IMG/VR virus record: IMGVR_UViG_3300025070_000144
Span: 1 to 31,394 of that record
DNA: 31,394 nucleotides
Strand: one strand, 5' to 3'
Source: a virus
Part shown: one piece after another, positions 2,383 to 31,394 of the stretch
Numbering within the stretch: position 1 is the stretch's first letter
Layout of the letters: each line of letters begins with the position of its first letter
The notes under the pieces: generated by a model
What the model saw: the letters and a program-made list of their open reading frames with translations, nothing else
The model's database searches: none
What the model was told of the DNA's origin: nothing
Made by a program: the position numbers and the translations under genes

Positions 2383-2468
2383 GCAAAGGACCAAACTACG
2401 AAGAATTTATAATAGCTACGCTAATTAATTTAGCTATAGTTTTGTTCGTCTTGAAGTTAATCTTGTAA
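2379..2468 (+). CDS. 29-residue single-span membrane microprotein
   Basis: An ATG overlaps the previous stop (ATGA) and opens a 29-codon frame ending at TAA 2466-2468. The product begins MSKGPNYEEF and continues as an uninterrupted hydrophobic helix (IIATLINLAIVLFVLKLIL), long enough to span the inner membrane. The translational coupling and the clean transmembrane segment argue for a real gene despite its size. Its 3' end overlaps the end of the opposing leftward gene by 35 bases. It may act at the membrane (lysis helper, superinfection exclusion or inhibitor), but the function is unknown. Confidence 0.5.
   Translation: MSKGPNYEEFIIATLINLAIVLFVLKLIL
2412..2437. terminator. Possible hairpin between convergent transcripts
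   Basis: ATAGCTA and TAGCTAT form a 7-bp AT-rich inverted repeat with a 12-base spacer that can extend the stem with CTAA/TTAG. It lies where the rightward early cluster and the leftward late operon meet, within the 3' ends of both. Only a short T-run (TTTT) follows on the plus strand, so it is weak as an intrinsic terminator. Confidence 0.3.
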
Positions 2469-2616
2469 TCTTCTTAGGCTTAAAGATGTTCTTCATCTTC
2501 TTTGGCTTAACTCTTGCAGGTAGATTCTTTGAGCCGTATTCCTTCTCCCACTTTGCTGCAAGCTCGGGCATATTTTTGTACATATATCGTCTCTGTGCTT
2601 CGCTTTTAAATGGCAT
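2434..2616 (-). CDS. Small basic phage protein (MPFKSEAQRRY family)
   Basis: A 60-residue protein starting MPFKSEAQRRYMYKNMPELA, then AKWEKEYG, an N-terminal pattern (MPFKSxxQRRYxxxxxPExAxxWxxxYG) I recognise from many small, uncharacterised tailed-phage proteins and from ends of larger phage proteins. The C-terminal half is strongly basic and probably disordered, which suggests contact with DNA or with acidic virion proteins. It is the last gene of the leftward late operon, 2 bases after the end of the giant 2334-residue gene, which also ends in a basic tail. It may be a virion component; no enzymatic motif is visible. Confidence 0.75.
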   Translation of the reverse strand: MPFKSEAQRRYMYKNMPELAAKWEKEYGSKNLPARVKPKKMKNIFKPKKITRLTSRRTKL

Positions 2617-2618
2617 AA

Positions 2619-5600
2619 TTATCTTCTTGTTCTTGAACTTCTTGTTTGTCTCCTCGGTCTTTCTTTTCCTTTACGAAATGCAGGTGCATAATTAATATCT
2701 CCTCCTTCTTTTATTATTTTATTCACTCTTCTCTGTAAGTTTTTTAATCTTTTTTCGGCTAACTTTTCGTCATATCCTTCAGATTTAGGACCGAACTGAA
2801 CCTCCCAAAGTGAATAATCATTGGTCTTCATATCTTTTTCGTCTTCATATCCCATTAGTTTTTCTTCCATAGCTTGCTTTTCTATTTTAGCTTTCTTTTT
2901 AGCTACAGTTAAATCCTTATATATGTCCTGATAAACCATCTTTTTTATATCTCTATAAAAAGGAATCATATTTAGATTACCAAATATTTCAAGAAGAAGC
3001 CTGTCTGTTCTTTCTCTATTTTGTCTTACTACTGCATCAGCTTTTGTTTTTTCAGGTGCAGTAGCTTGTTTAATCATAAAGTCTATTGACTTCATAAAAG
3101 GAGTAAGTGGACCTCCTATTTTCATTATAACATCACCTAAATCAGATTGTCCTTCTCTTCCTGTTTTTTGAAATAGATTAAATTGTATGGCATCTTTATA
3201 TGGGTCATAATCGCCATTTCTTAAAAACTGTAATTGCTCCTCATTAAACCATTCTACACCCGCATTTATAATACTTTTGAAAGCATTGCCAAAATCTCTA
3301 CCCAACGTAAGCTGAGTGAAAGTTGAAGCAAGTGCCTGACCAAGTTCTTGATAGAATGATTTTTCATCAGCATATAATAGCTCTTCATCCTCGATTTCAT
3401 CTCCAAATATTTCATTAGAAATTTTCAACATAATTTCTGTCATCAAGTTCATACCTACGGTATAAAGAGTCATACGAACAGTAACTGCTGCTAATAATGC
3501 TGCTCCTTGCTTTCTACTCATTTCTCCTCTTCCCACCATAGCATATACACCTGTCCTAGCTGCTGCATATTCAAAATGCAAGAATTTTGTCATAAACTTA
3601 TTGAATACATTATATCCTTTCAGCAATGTAGATTGATTAGGTTTTACAGTACCTTTAAGTATACCCATAAATGGATTATCTGTTGCACCGGTTTGAGTTG
3701 TTTTATTATCTGCCTTTTTCTTAGCAGCATCCAATGCCTTAGCGTTTTCGTTCATATACGCTTCGTCATTTTTAAGTATCTTTTGGAAGTCAGGAGATTT
3801 ACCCGTTATGTTCTTAAACTCAACATCAAAAGTACCCATCCATAATCGTTGCATAACAATCTTATCGGGAGTGGATATTAATTTATCAGCAACTCCCTCT
3901 ATTGCTTTATAGGATGACTTTAATGAGGCATCATACTTACCTATAGGGGCAGACTTATTTACTAGCTTAGTTAGAGTGTTCATAACTGTACCCTTCATCT
4001 TACCTGCCTCTCTTCCCTGTGTTTTATTTATTAAACTAGAGTCGACCAACTTACCTGAAAGCTCATCAAATCCAAAAATCCTTGATGTATTTACAGACCC
4101 AACATTATCCATTATTATAGAGCCATTATCTGCTGAAGTAAATTCTGCTAGCTTCATACCTCTAGCAAATTCTGTAGGGGAATTTATCGCAGCAAAAGCC
4201 AAGTTACTACCAAGTTCAGCAACAAATCTAGGTGCACTTGCTAGCATAGTTCTATAACCTGTCTTTGTCATATAGTTTAACACATCATCTGCAAACGAAG
4301 TTTCGATAAACGTTGTATCTAAGACATTACTTAATGCTTCATCAAAAGCATTTTCTATCGCATTCAATGTATTTAATTGTTTTTTTGAATCTGAGTCTAT
4401 TAACTTCCTAGCATCTTCTAATGTTTTGTATGTTCCTCTTATGGTGTCTGATAAATGATAATCCATAAGAAGTTTTTTAGAACTATTAGATACAGACGAA
4501 TATACATCCATATTTATTGCACTAGGCTTGCCTGTTCTTTTTATTAATAGCTTTGACTTTGTGTTTGGTTTTAACGACTCTTTGTATGCTTCTGATTCAA
4601 GTATTCCTCTTTTTTTTGCGTCTTTAACTTCAGGTAAAACATTCAATGAAATATAATTATCTAAAGTTTCTATTGGCTCTCCATATATGATGTTAGAAAC
4701 ATACTCAGCCATTGGTGTCATACTTTGATTAATATCTGTAAGAGTGTCTATAGATTCTTTTTCTGCTTTGTTAAACGAATCGTATAGTTTTTCGTTATCA
4801 AAAACGTCATCTACTGTGTAGTCTTTTAATATACTTTCAAATGCTTGTATATCTCTTTCATCATAAAAACCTTTCAGTTCCTTTGATTTTTTTATTGTAG
4901 CGTTTAAAATATCTGTAGCACTATTTACTTGTTTACTATCCGGGTTGCTCAAAAACTCTCTCTGAATCATATAAGCCATTTGCTTAAATGAAGATAGTGT
5001 AAACTTATTTGGGTCGTATCCAAGAGATTTGAATACCTTATCTTGTGCGTTTTGTATTCTTATGTTTGTAACATCACTTTGATTTTTATAACGAGAATAT
5101 GCTTCTGCTATTGGCTTAAATACCGTATCAAATATTGTGGTGGTTTTAAAGTCTCCAAATAAATTATCTATATATTTCAGAGGATTTCTTCTAATCATCT
5201 CATCTGTAGATTTTCTATTGGTCAACAAACTTTTTACATTGCTTATAAATTTACTTATAGGTAATGGTTTTGCTTTTTTTATAGAATTGTTCGCTAAATT
5301 TAAGGCTTTGTTATTTGATGATATATTAGTTGAAATCTTTTTAGCGTAGCTAGTAAAGTATCCATTATTAATGTTGTCTGCTATTTTTGATATATTTTTT
5401 AAATCATAGGTTGATAGATTTTCTAATCCTTTTGTTTTTAGTAATTTAAAAAAGTTATTAGCATCATCTCTCTCTAATCTAGTGTCTAGAGAGTTTATTG
5501 AATCTTGATTAGCTTTTATTTGACCTATTTCTTTTATTAGTTTTTTTCTTTCTTCCTGTTTTTGTTCCTCCGTCTTTTCTTCAACTTTTTTAGTTTGTGA

Positions 5601-8600
5601 TAAAATTTCAGTTTTATATTTTACCATAAGGTCATATTCGTCCTGATTGATGATACCTTCATCTCTCATAGAGTTTATTGTCTGATTATATGTTGACCCC
5701 TTATCAGATTTAGAATACTTTTCTATTAAGCTAGGGACAGTAGAATATTGTTCATTTAAACCCTTGACTATATTGCTAGCCATTTCTTCTACCTTAGCTC
5801 TTTTATCTAAAGATACTACAGCATCCTTCTTTCCGAACATTTCAACTAATGATTCGTAATCACTTAATACAGATTCAGGTATTATAGATGCATCTGTATT
5901 AAATATTTTTCTCAAGTTATTTATACTATTGGATAATATCCCTGCTTTTTTATTGGCTGTATTTTTTGCTATTTTTCTTTTTGAATTTAATGAAGACATT
6001 TTAGAAGAATAGTTTGCATCTTTTATAACATTCGCCATATAATCTACAAACTTACTAATAGAGGTTTCACTTAGTGGATTAACTCTAGATAGTCTAGACA
6101 ATATACTATTCATTTGCTTTGTAGTAATATTGCCCTCTTGATTTAAGTTTTTAACTTCAGTAGAAATTTGTTTTATACCATCCTTAGCTAATTTAATTAT
6201 TCTGTCAGCTATGTTAAGTTTGTCTTCATCGGTTATATTTTTTACATCTTCAAGACCTTCTAAAATCTTTGCTTTTTCTTTTTTTGGTTTTCGTACAACC
6301 TTTGGTTTCTTTTCTTTAGGCTCTACTTTTACAGCAGGTTTTTTTTCTGATATCTTTTTTAGTTTTCTTTCAGCCTTTCTTTTTTCTTTTTTTAACTCCT
6401 TGATATCATCTTTTAAATCTTGAATTATAGATTTTTGGCTATCTTTATAATCTGACTTTTCAGCTTTTAATTCATCAATACGTTCCGCTTTAGATTCCTT
6501 GTCTATTTTTGATGCACGAACTTCTTTTATCTCTGCATCAATCCTAGCTATTTCTTGTTTTTCATCACCTTGTTCAATTGAAATCTCCTCTTGTTTGCTT
6601 TCTATTTGACCATCAATATCTTCCATTTCAGATAGCAACGAAGACTCTTCTTCAGTAACTTCGGGAACAGCCTTTTCTTCTTTTACTTCAGGTTTAACTT
6701 CTTCAGTAACCTCTACCTCAGGTGCAACTTCTTCAACAACATCTTCTGCTGTTTCTAGTATACTATCATCCTTTATAATGTATTGCTCTTCAACTGTACC
6801 TCTTGCATCACGAGTGATTAGTTTCACAACCTGAGCATCCGAATTGTCAATTAGTTTCTCCTCTTGCTTTTTTACCTCACTTAAAGGTTGATTTGTATCT
6901 TCAACTTTTACCACGTCAATCGTAGTGCCGGGAGGAACTGTGAATTTTTTTAATGGCTTGTCTCCTTTGTAATCACTAGCTAATTTCTTATCAGCAGCAG
7001 CAAATTCACCTTTCTCTATTTTGTGTGCCGAGAAAGGCTTGCCATCTTTTATTTTAGGCTGCATACCTTTAAATAAGGTTTGCTCTTCAGTAGTTGTTAT
7101 TTGTTCTCCCGGGGTCTTAGCTTGCTCAAGCTCAACTTTTGCTTCAGGTGCAACTTCTTCAGTAACTTTAGTTAAGGATTGATTGTCAAAAACAATGTAA
7201 GAGTCTCCTTCTCCCTCAAACTTATTGTCATAAACAAATGCATCAATATTATTTTTATTTAAAACATTCAATACATCATCAAAAGTTTTTATTTCTTTTT
7301 TAGCAATACCTCTTTCTTTAGATATCAATCCTAAATCTTGGAGTATATTTCTATATTTTGAAAGAGTCCATCTTCCTACATCATCAACTCTAACAATGTT
7401 TTTAGGATTTATTCTAACCTTTATTAATCTTTTTTTATCCTGCGGTATATTTTTTGTTTTAGCTCTATTTTCTGATTGCTGTTTAGTTCCTAAATGAATG
7501 CCTAATTCCATACGGGGAGACTCGGTTGTTCCGTCCGTCATTCCCATAACTTTAAAATCTGTAAAATCCTCTGATGTAGCGTGAAATAATTCTATTTCTT
7601 CTTCAGGTGCAGCTTCTTCAGTAACCTGCTCTTTAACTTCTACTTCAGGTGCAGCTTCTATTGGATTATCTTCAAGCTCCTTCATTTGTTCGTTGAGCTC
7701 AGCTACCTTTCTTTTCCCTGCTTGTGTTTTATTGTCTTTTAACTTATCAGCCTCCATTTGAAGGTCTGCAATTTTATCTACAGTAGCATCATTTAACTCA
7801 GGCTTTGCTTGAGATATTTGTTCTTTAACAGCTCCCTTGACAATCTTGTTCTGCACTTTATCAGAAAGTTCTTTGTCATTTTCTATATTAATGTCAGAAT
7901 CAGCTAGTTCTTCGGGAGTCATTGATTCAACTACATCTTTAATAACAGATTCATTTACAGTATTGCCATTAATTTTATATGTCGCAGGGTCTGTTGCTTT
8001 TATTTGACTTTGAATAAAAGTCTTAGCACTACCCGGAGTTTCTGCAAAAAACTCAAGACCTACATCTGACCAAGTTGGTGTTTCTCCTATAGCTACAGTA
8101 CCCAATGCTTCTCCTGTTGCCCCTCCTGTACCTTCAAATCCTGTAGTGACAGCTAAAACTTTCCCTTTCCCTGCTCCTTTAGAAAGCATCTTAGCACCAA
8201 CGCTACCACCAATTAAACCAAAGGCTGTATCTATAATTCCAACAGTTAAACCTCTAGTTATTGCTTTGTTTCTAATTTTTTTATATGCCTCTTTATCATT
8301 GAGCATATTTTTTATATTCTCTCTATTAAGAGGTTTGTCTCCAACTTCCTCCATAAGTAATTCAGAAAACTTACTTCCTGCTTCTAAAACTGTACTTGCA
8401 GCACCAAAAGCAAATGGTATAGCTGAAGCAAATCCTGTTACTGTACCTACTGCTGCTCCGGGTAATGCACCAATACCACCAAGTGCAGCACCTGCTGTCG
8501 TGCCTGCTCCCGCACCATAAGCCATACCTGCTTGCAATGTTGTACTTGCTGCATCTAGCGATTCTTTATTTGCAGCCATTGATGCAAGACTAGTCGCAGC

Positions 8601-9623
8601 TACCTCTAAAAGAACAGTTGGGTTTTCTGCTAAACCTAAAACCATACCTAAAAATCCTCCTTCTTCTTCAGAGGTTTTAATGTATTCTTTCATTTCAGCA
8701 GACATTTGATATTCGCCTGCTTGTTTTTGAGCTTCAATAAATTTATCTATTTGCTCATTAGATGCCATAGAACCTTTGAGTAATAAATCATTTGTGGCTT
8801 CAGCTACATTACCTTGTGCTCTGCCTGACATTACAGCTCTTCCTAAATCATCAACAAACTCACCTAGACCTATGTAAGTCACATCGTCAAATGTCTTTAA
8901 CGCAGAACCAAAAGCTCCTTCAAAAAAATCTTCTTCTGTTTCGTATCCTTCTAAAGTTCCAAATTTGTTTATCCAATCGTCTTGAGCACTAAGCTCTCTT
9001 TTAACTTGGTCTTTTAGTTCAGGAAACTTTTCTTGTACAACAGATTCTAAATCTATGTCGCTTTCGTTTATTTCTCCCTTTTCTACTTTTTGCTTTATTA
9101 GTTCATCTTTAATAGCTTTTTGTCTATTAAGTCTATTAAATATGGCATCTGCTTGATTTTTTCTAGTCTCTATATCTAAAGCAGTTTCTCCGGGGACTAA
9201 TGGTTCTTCAGGTGCAACAAATGTTTCGGGGTCAATCTCTGTAGGTTGAATTGCAGACTCTTCAGTTGCAGTCTCTTCAGGTCTTAAAGGTATGGGTGTT
9301 TCCTCTACTTGCTCGCCAAACTGAAATTGCTCAGGAGATTGTAAAACCGATAAAGTATCTTCGACCGGAACTTCCTCTGTAACAGATTCCGTAACGTCCA
9401 CCTTTTCCTCCAAGGGTATAGAGTCTTTTTTTTTTACATCACCTAATGAAAACTTAGATAAAAAATCTTCTTTACTTTTTGTGTAAAAACCATCTCTAAA
9501 AACTACGTTAAAAACTTTATCTCTATATGCTTCATCTTGGTATTGAGATTGAAAATCATCAAAAGATTTTGTGTAATAACCCTCTCTTTTTAATACGTTA
9601 AATAACTTCTGTAGTTCTTCCAT
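2619..9623 (-). CDS. Giant internal virion/polyvalent protein with ADP-ribosyltransferase-like domains
   Basis: A 2334-residue protein. The N-terminus has two copies of a 21-residue motif, residues 7-27 and 37-57, sharing [LV]FNVxxRxG[YF]YTKSxxDF. Gly/Ala-rich, weakly hydrophobic stretches follow (about 335-410 and 460-510) that could insert in membranes. Residues about 676-818 resemble the ADP-ribosyltransferase module of phage polyvalent proteins: LFHATS (His681), ELGIHLGT, and YDNKFEGEGDSYIVF (Glu803-Tyr809). A second, weaker candidate covers about 848-955 and ends EEQYII (945-950). Acidic Ala-Pro-Glu linkers flank both. A Lys/Glu-rich coiled coil (about 990-1120), a long helical region, two near-transmembrane helices (about 2039-2068) and an Arg-rich tail follow. 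I see no RNA polymerase DxDxD motif. Position after the 294 and 604 aa genes suggests the T7 gp16 role of an ejected protein delivered into the host cell. Domain calls are from pattern recognition and moderately uncertain. Confidence 0.7.
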   Translation of the reverse strand: MEELQKLFNVLKREGYYTKSFDDFQSQYQDEAYRDKVFNVVFRDGFYTKSKEDFLSKFSLGDVKKKDSIPLEEKVDVTESVTEEVPVEDTLSVLQSPEQFQFGEQVEETPIPLRPEETATEESAIQPTEIDPETFVAPEEPLVPGETALDIETRKNQADAIFNRLNRQKAIKDELIKQKVEKGEINESDIDLESVVQEKFPELKDQVKRELSAQDDWINKFGTLEGYETEEDFFEGAFGSALKTFDDVTYIGLGEFVDDLGRAVMSGRAQGNVAEATNDLLLKGSMASNEQIDKFIEAQKQAGEYQMSAEMKEYIKTSEEEGGFLGMVLGLAENPTVLLEVAATSLASMAANKESLDAASTTLQAGMAYGAGAGTTAGAALGGIGALPGAAVGTVTGFASAIPFAFGAASTVLEAGSKFSELLMEEVGDKPLNRENIKNMLNDKEAYKKIRNKAITRGLTVGIIDTAFGLIGGSVGAKMLSKGAGKGKVLAVTTGFEGTGGATGEALGTVAIGETPTWSDVGLEFFAETPGSAKTFIQSQIKATDPATYKINGNTVNESVIKDVVESMTPEELADSDINIENDKELSDKVQNKIVKGAVKEQISQAKPELNDATVDKIADLQMEADKLKDNKTQAGKRKVAELNEQMKELEDNPIEAAPEVEVKEQVTEEAAPEEEIELFHATSEDFTDFKVMGMTDGTTESPRMELGIHLGTKQQSENRAKTKNIPQDKKRLIKVRINPKNIVRVDDVGRWTLSKYRNILQDLGLISKERGIAKKEIKTFDDVLNVLNKNNIDAFVYDNKFEGEGDSYIVFDNQSLTKVTEEVAPEAKVELEQAKTPGEQITTTEEQTLFKGMQPKIKDGKPFSAHKIEKGEFAAADKKLASDYKGDKPLKKFTVPPGTTIDVVKVEDTNQPLSEVKKQEEKLIDNSDAQVVKLITRDARGTVEEQYIIKDDSILETAEDVVEEVAPEVEVTEEVKPEVKEEKAVPEVTEEESSLLSEMEDIDGQIESKQEEISIEQGDEKQEIARIDAEIKEVRASKIDKESKAERIDELKAEKSDYKDSQKSIIQDLKDDIKELKKEKRKAERKLKKISEKKPAVKVEPKEKKPKVVRKPKKEKAKILEGLEDVKNITDEDKLNIADRIIKLAKDGIKQISTEVKNLNQEGNITTKQMNSILSRLSRVNPLSETSISKFVDYMANVIKDANYSSKMSSLNSKRKIAKNTANKKAGILSNSINNLRKIFNTDASIIPESVLSDYESLVEMFGKKDAVVSLDKRAKVEEMASNIVKGLNEQYSTVPSLIEKYSKSDKGSTYNQTINSMRDEGIINQDEYDLMVKYKTEILSQTKKVEEKTEEQKQEERKKLIKEIGQIKANQDSINSLDTRLERDDANNFFKLLKTKGLENLSTYDLKNISKIADNINNGYFTSYAKKISTNISSNNKALNLANNSIKKAKPLPISKFISNVKSLLTNRKSTDEMIRRNPLKYIDNLFGDFKTTTIFDTVFKPIAEAYSRYKNQSDVTNIRIQNAQDKVFKSLGYDPNKFTLSSFKQMAYMIQREFLSNPDSKQVNSATDILNATIKKSKELKGFYDERDIQAFESILKDYTVDDVFDNEKLYDSFNKAEKESIDTLTDINQSMTPMAEYVSNIIYGEPIETLDNYISLNVLPEVKDAKKRGILESEAYKESLKPNTKSKLLIKRTGKPSAINMDVYSSVSNSSKKLLMDYHLSDTIRGTYKTLEDARKLIDSDSKKQLNTLNAIENAFDEALSNVLDTTFIETSFADDVLNYMTKTGYRTMLASAPRFVAELGSNLAFAAINSPTEFARGMKLAEFTSADNGSIIMDNVGSVNTSRIFGFDELSGKLVDSSLINKTQGREAGKMKGTVMNTLTKLVNKSAPIGKYDASLKSSYKAIEGVADKLISTPDKIVMQRLWMGTFDVEFKNITGKSPDFQKILKNDEAYMNENAKALDAAKKKADNKTTQTGATDNPFMGILKGTVKPNQSTLLKGYNVFNKFMTKFLHFEYAAARTGVYAMVGRGEMSRKQGAALLAAVTVRMTLYTVGMNLMTEIMLKISNEIFGDEIEDEELLYADEKSFYQELGQALASTFTQLTLGRDFGNAFKSIINAGVEWFNEEQLQFLRNGDYDPYKDAIQFNLFQKTGREGQSDLGDVIMKIGGPLTPFMKSIDFMIKQATAPEKTKADAVVRQNRERTDRLLLEIFGNLNMIPFYRDIKKMVYQDIYKDLTVAKKKAKIEKQAMEEKLMGYEDEKDMKTNDYSLWEVQFGPKSEGYDEKLAEKRLKNLQRRVNKIIKEGGDINYAPAFRKGKERPRRQTRSSRTRR
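6718..7659 (-). repeat. Repeated acidic linker (Ala-Pro-Glu-Val) in the giant gene
   Basis: The unit TCAGGTGCA[AG]CTTCTTC (plus strand) occurs at 6718-6734, 7144-7160 and 7603-7619, a shorter copy at 7645-7659, and a partial one at 9208-9218. On the coding strand it gives Glu-Glu-[Val/Ala]-Ala-Pro-Glu. The copies sit just before, between and just after the two ADP-ribosyltransferase-like domains, marking them as beads on flexible acidic linkers. Confidence 0.7.
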
Positions 9624-9633
9624 TATTCTATAT

Positions 9634-11448
9634 TTAGTCTAATTCTCCTGAATCTTCCTCTTCAGTAACTGACCCTTCTCCTTTTACAATATCTCTATAT
9701 GCAGCTTCATTTGACCTCATATATTTTTGTATCATATCGTTTACTGATTTTATATAATTTCTTGCCCTTTCATTTCTGTCACTAAACGGAATACGATTAA
9801 GGTCTCCTACTATTTTAACGCTTAAGTCTGAGCCTAAAATAGATATTATACCTCCATCATCATCTCCATCGTACTCAAATTCTATACCTGTATCTGCGTA
9901 TGCATCTTTTAATGTATTGGCAAAAGTTTCTGCATCATCTATTAAGTCTTCTTGGAAATTATTTTTTTCAGCTAAACCTGAAACATATTTAGATATGTCT
10001 TTTTTAAGTGTAGGAGCTTTAGTTACTTCAGCAAAAATATCTTCACCTAATAAACTAAACTTCTCTTCCTTGCTGTAATTTGCTTTTTTAAGTGCTTCTT
10101 TTATATCTCTCTCTCCAACTAATAAAGGACTAGCTGTTTCTATAAACTCCTGTAAAGTCTTTCCTTTGAAGTCTATGTTTCTTCTTACTATTTGTTGAGT
10201 TTCTGAATCTTTAATGTCAACATATATTCCTTTATCAGTTCTTCCTACTTTTACTGTAGGGCTTTTTGCATCCATAAAAAAGTCTCTAAAATATTCATCG
10301 GCTTCTAATACATCTGATTTATTTCCCGACCATAACTTTTTCATCATATTTAAGACATCTGCATCTTTAGCTAATTTACCCTTTCTTTTTAAATATCTTT
10401 CAGTATCAGCAGCCGATGTTCGTCTTTCTTTTTTAGCGGTTTCAGTAACCATAGTTTTGCTGTCAATCATACCTTCCAACACCAATCCTATACGTTCTTC
10501 AGCTATTTCTTTTTGCGATTCAGTTAACTCAGCACGACCTTCTTTTCCATTGGATATATCAATATAAATTTGCTTTTCTCTTTCAGCAGGGTCTTTAGAT
10601 AATTCATCTCTTTTTGTTACAACATCGTAGCCTCCTATATAGTCGGCTAATACAGATGATGTACTTAGGTCTGAGCTAAGAATGCCATCTATTAAAGATT
10701 TTTTTAGCTCTAAGTAATCACCTCTTTGCCTAATATCTGTTATGACTTCAGTTCTACCTTTGTTCCTGTAGTCAGGTGCTGTTGCTGTGCTTGTAATAAA
10801 TGTTGCCAATCTATCCGCTGATTTTTTAGCCTCTGCTTCAACATCAACTTTATTTACAAAGTTTTGAGCTAAGTTAAACATAGCCTGTGCACTCATAGCT
10901 CTACTTGGGTCTATAGTTGTTACACCATTCTTATCTGTAACTAACGGAGCAGCTACGATAGCACCCGTACTGTCAATAAAGAAATCATTCTCATTGAAGT
11001 TAGTCATATTAGATATATCTTCAAATATCTGCTGCTCAACCTTACCTGAGATATCTTCATCTAGTCTGTTTAGATGCTCTTCGTATAGCTTATTGTAATT
11101 ATTGCTTAAGTTAAATATTTGGTCTGCACTACTGTTCATTCTCTGAACCTTACGCATATATTCAGCAGGAGTAATTCTACCTGCCTTAAGGTCTTTATTG
11201 GCAGCCAACAAGTAAGAACTTGCGTTATCTGCTAAGCCAATTATTCTGTCGTTAAAGTCTGTATTGTATCCCAAGGGTGCTTCTTTCAATGCATCCTGAG
11301 TTTTAATCATTGCATCATCAAGAAGGTCTTTCTTAGCTTGTCTCTCTTCTCGTTCTGCAACGAGCATATCAGCAAAGCCTTTTCCAACTTCACCCCAATT
11401 AACATCATTCTCGATGTTCCTTTCTACATATCCAAATTTAGTTGCCAT
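9634..11448 (-). CDS. Predicted internal virion (ejection) protein, gp15-like position
   Basis: A 604-residue, mostly helical, acidic protein without signal peptide, Cys motif or clear membrane segment. It begins MATKFGYVERNIENDVNWGE and goes on with GKGFADML, an opening I associate with large internal proteins of Bacteroidetes podophages. The middle has helical repeats rich in Asn, Ala and Asp; a DDDDGGI loop lies near the C-terminus (about 535), and the last residues are acidic. It lies 3 bases after the 294 aa gene and 10 bases before the giant gene, so the three are surely co-transcribed. By gene order it corresponds to T7 gp15, a core/ejection protein that lines a periplasmic conduit. 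That role is inferred from position and composition, not from sequence identity. Confidence 0.6.
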   Translation of the reverse strand: MATKFGYVERNIENDVNWGEVGKGFADMLVAEREERQAKKDLLDDAMIKTQDALKEAPLGYNTDFNDRIIGLADNASSYLLAANKDLKAGRITPAEYMRKVQRMNSSADQIFNLSNNYNKLYEEHLNRLDEDISGKVEQQIFEDISNMTNFNENDFFIDSTGAIVAAPLVTDKNGVTTIDPSRAMSAQAMFNLAQNFVNKVDVEAEAKKSADRLATFITSTATAPDYRNKGRTEVITDIRQRGDYLELKKSLIDGILSSDLSTSSVLADYIGGYDVVTKRDELSKDPAEREKQIYIDISNGKEGRAELTESQKEIAEERIGLVLEGMIDSKTMVTETAKKERRTSAADTERYLKRKGKLAKDADVLNMMKKLWSGNKSDVLEADEYFRDFFMDAKSPTVKVGRTDKGIYVDIKDSETQQIVRRNIDFKGKTLQEFIETASPLLVGERDIKEALKKANYSKEEKFSLLGEDIFAEVTKAPTLKKDISKYVSGLAEKNNFQEDLIDDAETFANTLKDAYADTGIEFEYDGDDDGGIISILGSDLSVKIVGDLNRIPFSDRNERARNYIKSVNDMIQKYMRSNEAAYRDIVKGEGSVTEEEDSGELD

Positions 11449-12337: not shown

Positions 12338-12748
12338 TTATAATTTCTTTATCATTTCAGATGAGTAGCTATCTCCCTCAATATACCCTAACTTTTTGTA
12401 GACATCTATCAGTCGTCTATGTTTTATTAGAGCATATGAAAAAGATGCACCATTCATCTTACATATCTTAGTTAACGTATTAATTAACAACTCAATAGCC
12501 ATTGACCTATTTGGTTTCTTTCTGTAGTTTTTATTAGAAATTATCCAATCAACCCAACAAACTTCTGAGTTTGTTCTATATATAAAACCTGCACATACAG
12601 GAATGTCTTCGTCATAAACCATAAAACCACCCGTAGCATTTTCAGGTAAGAATGATTTTGGAGGTGCTGCCCAACCCCAATCTTTCCACCAATCTACAAG
12701 TATATCGTCATAGTCAGTTTCGGATAATGGCTTAACGTCAAACATCAT
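12338..12748 (-). CDS. GNAT-like acetyltransferase-fold protein in the tail module
   Basis: The product has the alternation of strands and helices of the GNAT fold: GGFMVYDEDIPVCAGFIYRT (paired strands), VDWIISNKNYRKKPNRSMAI (core strand and the acetyl-CoA pyrophosphate loop region), a helix, then a final FSYALIKHRRLIDVYKKLGY, the usual C-terminal GNAT ending (xxxYxKLGF/Y). The classical Q/RxxGxG loop is degenerate. The frame is open to a TTG at 12757, but the first ATG is at 12748 with another at 12745; I prefer 12748 because the TTG overlaps a promoter-like TATCTTTG box. This gives 136 residues. Flanking genes encode tail and internal virion proteins, so it may modify a virion protein or a host target, or be a non-catalytic structural relative. 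Fold confidence is moderate. Confidence 0.6.
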   Translation of the reverse strand: MMFDVKPLSETDYDDILVDWWKDWGWAAPPKSFLPENATGGFMVYDEDIPVCAGFIYRTNSEVCWVDWIISNKNYRKKPNRSMAIELLINTLTKICKMNGASFSYALIKHRRLIDVYKKLGYIEGDSYSSEMIKKL

Positions 12749-12754
12749 TGACCA

Positions 12755-12762
12755 CAAAGATA
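12755..12762 (-). promoter_or_regulatory. Candidate -7 box TATCTTTG ahead of the GNAT-like gene
   Basis: On the minus strand TATCTTTG (TAnnTTTG consensus) lies between the tail gene ending at 12769 and the ATG at 12748, with only 6 bases between box and ATG. Transcription would start at or next to the start codon, giving a leaderless or nearly leaderless mRNA. No -33 TTG is clear. Confidence 0.4.
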
Positions 12763-23457: not shown

Positions 23458-24552
23458 TTATTTTTTACTTCTAATTTTTAAACCTCTACCCGAGTCGTTG
23501 CCGAGAGATTTAATTTGCATCCCGCCTTTAGAAGTCACTTCAGGTGTTTTGCGTTCAGACATATTAATGTTTTTCGTCTTACGCATTACATCGTCAGTAG
23601 CCTCTGCTTTACCTTGTTCGTAAAAGAACTTGGCAAACTTTTCAGGATTCATTGCAATAGACAAAGCCTTGTGGTATCCTACTGCATCTTCGATAAGTCC
23701 ATCTTCATTTAAGAACTTTCCTATAAAGTTCTGTGGGTCAGATTGAATTTTCTTTAGTTCAGTAGCATCACCCGGAGAATACGTTACCTTTTTATCGTCA
23801 AGCGTGAACTCAAAACCTTTGAACTCACTTCCGAATACGTTATCAGTTTTTTTATTAAACCAATCACGCTTTCTTTGTATCGTCTCTTCGTAAGTCTTTG
23901 ATGACTCTATATATTGTTTATATGCCTCAAGGTCTTTCGCATCACTTTCAGAAATAGAACTCCCACTTGACTCAAGGGGAACTCTGTACTTTTCCTTCTG
24001 CTCATTAAAATACTTCTTGGCTTTAGCAATAGTCTTTTTCCTTGCTATTTTGATTTTCTTAATGTCAGCATCATCATCTACCTCCTCATCATATGAGTAG
24101 TCCTCCATCAACATATCAATGTCTTCGGAGTCTAATCCTTCTTCAGTTGCACTAAGATATTCTCGTAGCAATGTGTCAGGGGTCAATTCATCAAAGTCTT
24201 TGTTTAATCTAACATAGTCATCGATTCCTCTTCCTGTTTCTTTTTTGTACTTGTAATAAGCTGCAACATCTTCAGGCATCTCTTCAGATTCCTGAGCTGC
24301 TGTAAGCTCATCAAGAGAATTTATTTCTCTTCCGTACTTATTCTTAATAAATGAAAGAACACTTTCCTCGTTTAACTCTGAGGGTTGAGTTGTATCTTCT
24401 TCTTCGGTTTCTTCTTGAGCAACAACCTCAGTTGTTTCTTCAGATTCAACCTCTTCACTTAACTTTTCTTCGTGCTTTTCGAGTAGCTCCTGTTCAACTT
24501 GCTGTACAGACTTTTCCTCAACAACACCTACTTCTTTTACTTTAATTTCCAT
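23458..24552 (-). CDS. Capsid scaffolding protein candidate
   Basis: A 364-residue, highly charged protein between portal and capsid genes, the usual scaffold place. The first 75 residues are extremely Glu-rich; then come FIKNKYGREINSLDEL (about 68-83), an acidic patch around 140-165 (EDIDMLMEDYSYDEEVDDDA), a Lys-rich helix, a helical region, and a Lys/Arg-rich C-terminus (GRGLKIRSKK) that could bind the inner face of the capsid shell. It has no Cys and no membrane segment; helical, coiled-coil character is expected of scaffolds. A candidate promoter box, TAATTTTG, lies just upstream in the 45-base gap after the portal gene, so scaffold and capsid may form their own unit. Role inferred from position and composition. 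Confidence 0.7.
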   Translation of the reverse strand: MEIKVKEVGVVEEKSVQQVEQELLEKHEEKLSEEVESEETTEVVAQEETEEEDTTQPSELNEESVLSFIKNKYGREINSLDELTAAQESEEMPEDVAAYYKYKKETGRGIDDYVRLNKDFDELTPDTLLREYLSATEEGLDSEDIDMLMEDYSYDEEVDDDADIKKIKIARKKTIAKAKKYFNEQKEKYRVPLESSGSSISESDAKDLEAYKQYIESSKTYEETIQRKRDWFNKKTDNVFGSEFKGFEFTLDDKKVTYSPGDATELKKIQSDPQNFIGKFLNEDGLIEDAVGYHKALSIAMNPEKFAKFFYEQGKAEATDDVMRKTKNINMSERKTPEVTSKGGMQIKSLGNDSGRGLKIRSKK

Positions 24553-31114: not shown

Positions 31115-31394
31115 TAACGGAGATACATTGGTTGCCATCACTCTTGAGCAGATGGATAACATATACGTTGAGCTAATCCAAAAAGATAGCCTAATGGAAC
31201 AGGCTATTATAAGCTCTTCTAAGGAACTTAAACTATACGAGCTAGTATCTATATCCGAAAGTAACTTGAAGTCTTGTGAGGATGTCTTAAAAGATGCCTC
31301 AGATAACAATACTTATTTGATGTCTGAGAACAAGAAAATAGATAGTAAACTTAAAAGGACTAGAAAGGTTGCCATATATACTACTATTTTTGCT
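31035..31394 (+). CDS. Secreted/membrane coiled-coil protein, 3' end cut by the window
   Basis: The frame opens at ATG 31035 inside the previous gene and runs, without a stop, for 120 codons to the window end. It begins with a signal peptide-like segment MKQKLAIIIYCLLLNVSAYS (cleavage after SAYS, then Q); there is no lipobox Cys at the right place. A helical, coiled-coil-like middle follows (TLEQMDNIYVELIQKDSLME), with repeated Lys/Glu/Ser, and a second hydrophobic segment begins at the end (KVAIYTTIFA). This design, signal peptide plus helical rod plus late transmembrane segment, occurs in small Bacteroidetes phage proteins near lysis genes. It may be a spanin-like partner of the preceding gene; confidence in function is low. 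Confidence 0.6.
   Translation, partial: MKQKLAIIIYCLLLNVSAYSQVGLIDNNGDTLVAITLEQMDNIYVELIQKDSLMEQAIISSSKELKLYELVSISESNLKSCEDVLKDASDNNTYLMSENKKIDSKLKRTRKVAIYTTIFA

Follow-up and report, generated by a model that had tools for sequence, protein, structure and literature searches.

A giant polyvalent-type protein with an ADP-ribosyltransferase-like module in an environmental podovirus and a small gene nested in the linkers of its relatives

Gene order and architecture of the giant protein

The stretch of DNA analysed here, referred to as the window, comes from a virus and is 31.4 kb long (31,394 nucleotides). Most of its minus-strand genes belong to a late cluster. The cluster starts with small genes, followed by terminase, portal, a 364-aa scaffold-like gene, a capsid protein and connectors. 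After these come a tail protein of 1565 aa and several virion genes, then a GNAT-like gene and genes for proteins of 294 and 604 aa, and a giant gene is the last (Table 1). The GNAT-like gene (139 aa, 12338-12757) had no Pfam match and is conserved within the virion gene cluster, being 34-60% identical in relatives. Convergent with the late cluster are plus-strand genes at 186-2382, among them a calcineurin-like phosphoesterase (1013-1729, E=2.2e-6), and a tRNA-Leu gene (31181-31252) lies beyond the small genes upstream of terminase. Identity to MW202828 (Manatee Spring) amounts to 78% for the terminase and 75% for the portal; for the same two proteins it is about 45% to Flavobacterium phage elemo and 34-37% to Cellulophaga phage phi38:1. 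The virus is a podovirus of the elemo and phi38:1 kind, which infects marine bacteria.

Table 1. Coordinates of the features in the window
Feature	Position	Strand	Basis or remark
60-aa MPFKS gene, free-standing	2434..2616	-	ATG 2 nt behind the stop of the giant
Giant polyvalent-type protein, 2334 aa	2619..9623	-	last gene of late structural cluster; ORF; PHROG match; L001 homologue
Conserved C-terminal part (aa 1151-2238)	2910..6173	-	L001 and elemo alignments
Acidic linker 3 (aa 965-990)	6654..6731	-	
Mobile block with module 2 (aa 819-969)	6717..7169	-	DNA identity to L114
Acidic linker 2 (aa 820-842), 25-nt repeat copy 2	7098..7166	-	repeat
ADP-ribosyltransferase-fold module, module 1 (aa 676-822)	7158..7598	-	PF18760, pT24, relatives' alignment, AF2, Foldseek
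Acidic linker 1 (aa 656-676), 25-nt repeat copy 1	7596..7658	-	repeat
Gly/Ala-rich hydrophobic region (aa 330-530)	8034..8636	-	conservation within the N-terminal half of the giant is highest here
N-terminal tandem ~30-aa motif (aa 1-60), then KKKD	9444..9623	-	repeat family D3; layout in relatives
604-aa neighbour, probable second internal or ejection protein (phi38:1 gp100 position)	9634..11448	-	synteny
364-aa scaffold-like gene, between portal and capsid	23458..24552	-	nested gene absent here, present in relatives' version

A preliminary description, made from the letters of the window, had assigned positions 2619-9623 to one protein of 2334 residues with a duplicated N-terminal motif and Gly/Ala-rich membrane-like segments, and all three points hold. 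The region is a single 2334-aa ORF, which lies on the minus strand, a point not mentioned in that description. Residues 1462-2239 match phrog_32588 (E=2.7e-84), and L001 is a homologue of 3127 aa. The whole giant had no match in Pfam and none by tblastn against phages, because it is too divergent or too rich in linkers. The N-terminal duplication consists of two 57-nt copies that are 74% identical and 90 nt apart. Most giant relatives, including L001, L024, L034, L081, L114, L119 and MW202828, have the same tandem layout of about 30 aa followed by KKK[DE], with differing sequence. In place of this motif, phi38:1 gp101 has LDEFGIPxKK repeats. The retention of the layout with differing sequence in most giants suggests that the tandem motif is probably a packaging or ejection tag, and a candidate for loading the protein into the virion.

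In the membrane-like segment, residues 361-420 contain 29 Gly or Ala and two charged residues per 60 residues. The Gly/Ala-rich region is 29% identical to that of L001, while the C-terminal part is 42% identical to L001 over 1105 aa and 21% identical to elemo over 400 aa (E=2e-7). The middle region is not conserved; L001 and elemo carry other modules there, and HEIFH zincin-like motifs were found in both giants and DUF3293 in that of elemo. Despite a terminase identity of 78%, the giants of the window and MW202828 could be aligned in the membrane region only, making the giant the hypervariable member of the cluster.

The ADP-ribosyltransferase-like module and its linkers

Three landmarks mark the middle region, LFHATS at residue 679, YDNKFEGEGDSYIVF at 798 and EEQYII at 945, and the preliminary description had read module 1 as an ADP-ribosyltransferase (ART) and module 2 as perhaps a second one. 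Module 1 aligned with the full profile of ART-PolyVal (PF18760) with E=0.022 and 16 bits. Since this is below the curated cut-off of 31.2 bits, we call the module ART-PolyVal-like and not a Pfam member. Relatives of module 1 found by tblastn were Virus Rctr197k (2e-6), Tenacibaculum phage pT24, Lak phages and two plasmids; PF18760 matched two of the six members of their alignment (best E=4e-20), and the pT24 protein matched module 1 pairwise with E=3e-9. A direct viral scan with the module 1 sequence alone returned no relative; the alignment-based scan returned 25 loci, and PF18760 matched 16 of the 19 aligned phage ART modules. H10, G37, H39, G41, T42, D77, Y127, N129 and E132 are invariant in this 19-sequence alignment, and such conservation rules out LFHATS and the other landmarks as chance. 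ART-PolyVal (PF18760, Tox-ART-HYD2-type clade) shares with module 1 the ART fold and the strand-1 His, which is H10 in the alignment (aa 681 of the giant) and is invariant there. ARTs of the H-Y-D/E clade are marked by this His, a Tyr in strand 2 and an acidic residue in strand 5. However, the polyvalent ART clade is described with a Tyr in strand 2, whereas the subfamily of the window has a His there (G-x-H-[FL]-G-T), and it has its own C-terminal signature, Y-x-N-x-x-E.

AlphaFold2 gave a model of module 1 with a pLDDT of 83.9 and a pTM of 0.81 when the 19-sequence alignment was supplied; a single-sequence model (pLDDT 44.5) was discarded in favor of it. Foldseek matched the model with the cyanophage A4 pre-ejectosome, MbcT, PARP13, tankyrases and the catalytic domain of diphtheria toxin, as well as many ART-PolyVal phage proteins (best E=3e-9). 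TM values were about 0.4-0.5 to solved structures and up to 0.71 to viral models. The best solved-structure match belongs to a phage ejection machine, the A4 pre-ejectosome (PDB 9k3a chain B, 13% identity, TM 0.52), and this comparison is confined to the ART module. Searching the PDB by sequence with the modules of the giant yielded nothing meaningful. Taken together, the alignment-based model and its structural matches support an ART fold for module 1. A scaffold-nested relative (L036 record G004:C1:27014-27286, L108) has a 3090-aa open frame with an ART-PolyVal match (3.9e-6) that seems to be inserted within a HAD-like phosphatase module (FDFDDT ... FILTARP).

Module 2 is a discrete unit as had been proposed, but its reading as a second ART did not stand: residues 842-965 had no Pfam match up to E=10, and hhalign gave a probability of 0 against the ART profile. 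Residues 819-969 are 96% identical to L114 at the DNA level over 455 nt, whereas the two giants share about 30% aa identity elsewhere, and the borders of this block are sharp and fall in an APEA/TPGEQ linker. The linkers had also been described as repetitive just at module borders, and the 25-nt sequence GTTACTGAAGAAG[C/T]TGCACCTGAAG was indeed found on both sides of the ART module. Within the middle region of the giant, one 25-nt pair with at most one mismatch was observed, compared with none in 200 codon shuffles. In L116 and L117, the linker AAPEVEVKEKVTEEAAPE leads straight into module 2 with no ART between; in the window, the ART module is located at this junction with one repeat copy on each side. 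Based on the sharp identity borders and the repeats around the ART module, the linkers look like recombination borders, and we infer that recombination at the short repeats of linker DNA leads to gain or exchange of modules. That modules vary among related phages, as the preliminary description expected, is strongly supported by the differing middle modules, the swapped block and its sharp borders.

The giant thus combines the ART module, an unrelated mobile module, a membrane-like region and a conserved C-terminal body, which are several disparate domains. Could it be mainly a trans-envelope channel or an internal-core ejectosome protein, with the ART module as a structural or inactive passenger? 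The conserved parts of the giant are the Gly/Ala membrane-like region and the C-terminal body, and the best PDB match of module 1 lies within a pre-ejectosome, both as this alternative would expect. However, nine positions including H10 are invariant in 19 diverse ART relatives, and the enzymatic-looking modules vary in the manner of effectors (DUF3293 and HEIFH in elemo, HEIFH in L001), so we regard a channel with a passenger module as possible but somewhat unlikely. It is very probable that the giant brings an enzyme domain into the host cell. Its delivery together with the genome is plausible from gene order, from the annotation of its kin and from the presence of an ART-fold domain in the solved phage pre-ejectosome. 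A protein that is made late and acts unpackaged in the producing cell, for instance in lysis timing, seems improbable. Its position in the late cluster is compatible with packaged and unpackaged proteins alike, but in phi38:1 and elemo the annotation of its homologue or positional counterpart is 'structural protein', and two papers predict packaging in the head for polyvalent proteins that carry ARTs (PMC5512222, PMC9503650).

A small gene nested in the linkers of late virion proteins

The 60-aa ORF immediately behind the giant of the window (Table 1) matched DNA inside the giant gene of L001, read there in a different frame. Likewise, the peptide MPFKSKAQMKACYSQDNPKWDCKKWSKETPSKKSLP occurs in another frame within the giants of elemo and MW202828; the nested ATG of elemo is at position 53643 of MT497065, and its small protein includes MPFKSKAQMKACYSQDNPKWDCKKWSK. 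We counted a copy as nested when it was fully enclosed by a longer same-strand ORF with a length of 250 aa or more. In a viral scan for the MPFKS peptide, 63 of the 80 matches listed were nested, and a second, largely separate scan of divergent members gave 25 nested among the 79 matches listed, fractions that describe the listed matches and are not population estimates. All nested copies in both scans are in relative frame +2, and those of the second scan lie in host ORFs of about 400 to 2400 aa on contigs with 33-58% GC.

Synteny identified two unrelated kinds of host gene. One is the giant, which comes after the GNAT-294-604 genes; the other is the scaffold-like gene, which separates portal from capsid. 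In a terL tree with several weak deep branches, the scaffold-nested phages are apart from the group of the window, and elemo, which is giant-nested, is elsewhere. Exactly one copy of the MPFKS gene was present in each of 22 whole records out of 22. The copy is free-standing in L150, a close kin of the window, where it is 1 nt behind the giant. In L119, the closest relative by ART (81%), it is nested and occupies the linker immediately upstream of that module. No nested copy was found in the giant or the scaffold-like gene of the window itself. Bacterial genomes gave only 18 matches, all of them in metagenome bins.

Annotation has missed the nested gene because it is located inside another gene; among the 60 listed of 69 GenBank phage records with the MPFKS gene, only the host gene is annotated there. 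In open-licence papers, no description of the nested gene or its sequence was found, and a nested single-copy gene with alternative addresses is undescribed as far as this literature was searched. Free-standing homologues are represented by MPFKSKAQ small proteins and phrog_1375, a family of unknown function matched best by L084 (E=5e-7) and L079 (1.5e-5); the nested form containing Cys and Trp and the copy of the window had no PHROG match up to E=0.01. In other phages, L083 and L084, the MPFKS motif is at the N-terminus of proteins of about 195 aa. The phrog_1375-like homologues are located behind the portal gene in L214 and L223 and behind terminase in L163. Judging from this position, our best guess is a probable function of the small protein in the head or in packaging.

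To compare constraint in the two frames, we used 37 distinct scaffold-nested copies, in which the mean pairwise differences at small-frame positions 1, 2 and 3 (host positions 2, 3 and 1) were 0.157, 0.146 and 0.308, respectively. At host third positions the difference was 0.146 within the overlap, down from 0.487 in the downstream part. Giant-nested copies exhibited the same pattern, and in the second-scan copies small-frame position 2 was the most conserved and third positions the most variable. From crude pair counts on close pairs, omega was 0.23 and 0.19 for the small frame and 1.48 and 1.32 for the host frame. As judged from these substitution patterns, the nested frame is under purifying selection, while the host frame across the overlap behaves as a free linker.

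The region upstream of the nested ATG is rich in adenine at -3 (0.73), -6 (0.84), -12 (0.84) and -13 (0.92), and the mean upstream-adenine score was 3.33 of 4, compared with 1.5-2.2 at same-phase shifts. Adenines at these four positions drive initiation in Flavobacterium johnsoniae, according to ribosome profiling and reporter mutation (PMC6847099). At the level of sequence signals, the nested gene therefore has its own initiation signal of the Flavobacterium type. A chance alternative-frame ORF was rejected by the codon-position pattern, omega and the initiation context.

Truncated 5' ends of the nested gene were also present at module borders, as MPFKR in L001 (aa 703) and MPFKSKKLMK in elemo (L006, aa 1089), about 80-130 aa before the intact copy with another module between. 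From this arrangement we infer that the start region of the nested gene is also a place of module insertion. The modules that such ends flank upstream include an ART-like YRGTSISEW module in elemo. The same ends point to an involvement of nested-gene DNA in module exchange, which would fit an untranslated +2 frame that is conserved as a DNA site, for instance for recombination, or through constraint on the host linker. A DNA site or a linker constraint is nevertheless very unlikely, since it is the small frame, not the host frame, whose substitutions are synonymous, variation is greatest at small-frame third positions, the same protein is free-standing elsewhere and the initiation context is of the Flavobacterium type. 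Likewise very unlikely is programmed frameshifting into the nested frame, which would end the host protein early and add a basic tail to it: the same strand and fixed relative frame would suit it, but every nested copy examined starts with an ATG to which the initiation context is aligned, the free-standing homologues begin at the same MPFKS, and the fixed frame has a simpler explanation in stop avoidance. Codons before AAN, AGN or GAN ended in T in 0 of 1319 nested cases compared with 107 of 330 free-standing ones. This simply reflects the need to keep the host frame open, and only in the +2 frame does synonymous choice suffice to avoid host stops.

Proposed model and relation to known systems

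In the model that we propose, the giant would have a fixed frame consisting of the tandem N-terminal tag, the Gly/Ala membrane-active region and the conserved C-terminal body, and enzyme modules would be carried between these parts on acidic linkers, being gained and swapped via recombination at short repeated linker DNA. Once delivered, module 1 would most likely modify a host protein early in infection. The single-copy MPFKS gene would travel with the late cluster, either free-standing or nested in frame +2 within linker-coding DNA of the giant or scaffold-like gene. When nested, it would encode a constrained, independently initiated product, and the host frame across the overlap would be a passive linker. 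We consider this whole explanation, a polyvalent giant with an ART module, exchange at linkers and a nested MPFKS gene, to be likely. For the small gene itself our confidence is high: it appears to be overprinted in disordered linkers of late virion proteins, to change its address between scaffold-like gene, giant and free-standing position, to possess its own Flavobacterium-type start, and to take module insertions in its start region. Consequently, linkers of polyvalent proteins reading [DN]A[IV]Q[EVK] would be mostly the shadow of the hidden gene.

A group of environmental podoviruses that is widespread and little studied thus probably delivers ADP-ribosyltransferase-type enzymes on a modular giant protein, in which the linkers seem to be the route of module exchange. 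The analysis also reveals a conserved small gene, and further nested cases of it can be found by looking for [DN]A[IV]Q in the host frame of acidic linkers. Because a change of the nested start codon can be silent in the host protein, the function of the gene is testable in cultured elemo (Flavobacterium sp. BAL314).

Compared with phage polyvalent proteins, as far as the available part of their description extends (Iyer et al. 2017, PMC5512222), the giant is likewise a very large multidomain late protein with an ART module, a membrane-like region and variable enzymatic modules on linkers, and the zincin-like HEIFH motifs of its relatives are another likeness. The overlapping gene in the linkers of relatives is not mentioned for polyvalent proteins in that part. 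In the giant, neither an LPD domain of Pfam nor any other named polyvalent domain reached threshold. The giant is a polyvalent protein with an ART-PolyVal-like module and is a further member of a kind already known.

Nested and overlapping genes are classical in phages, as with E in D of phiX174 and Rz1 in Rz of lambda. In these pairs and in the MPFKS gene alike, a complete gene lies within another in a different frame. However, unlike phiX174 E and lambda Rz1, the MPFKS gene is located in two unrelated host genes or is free-standing among members of a single virus group, with one copy in each record.
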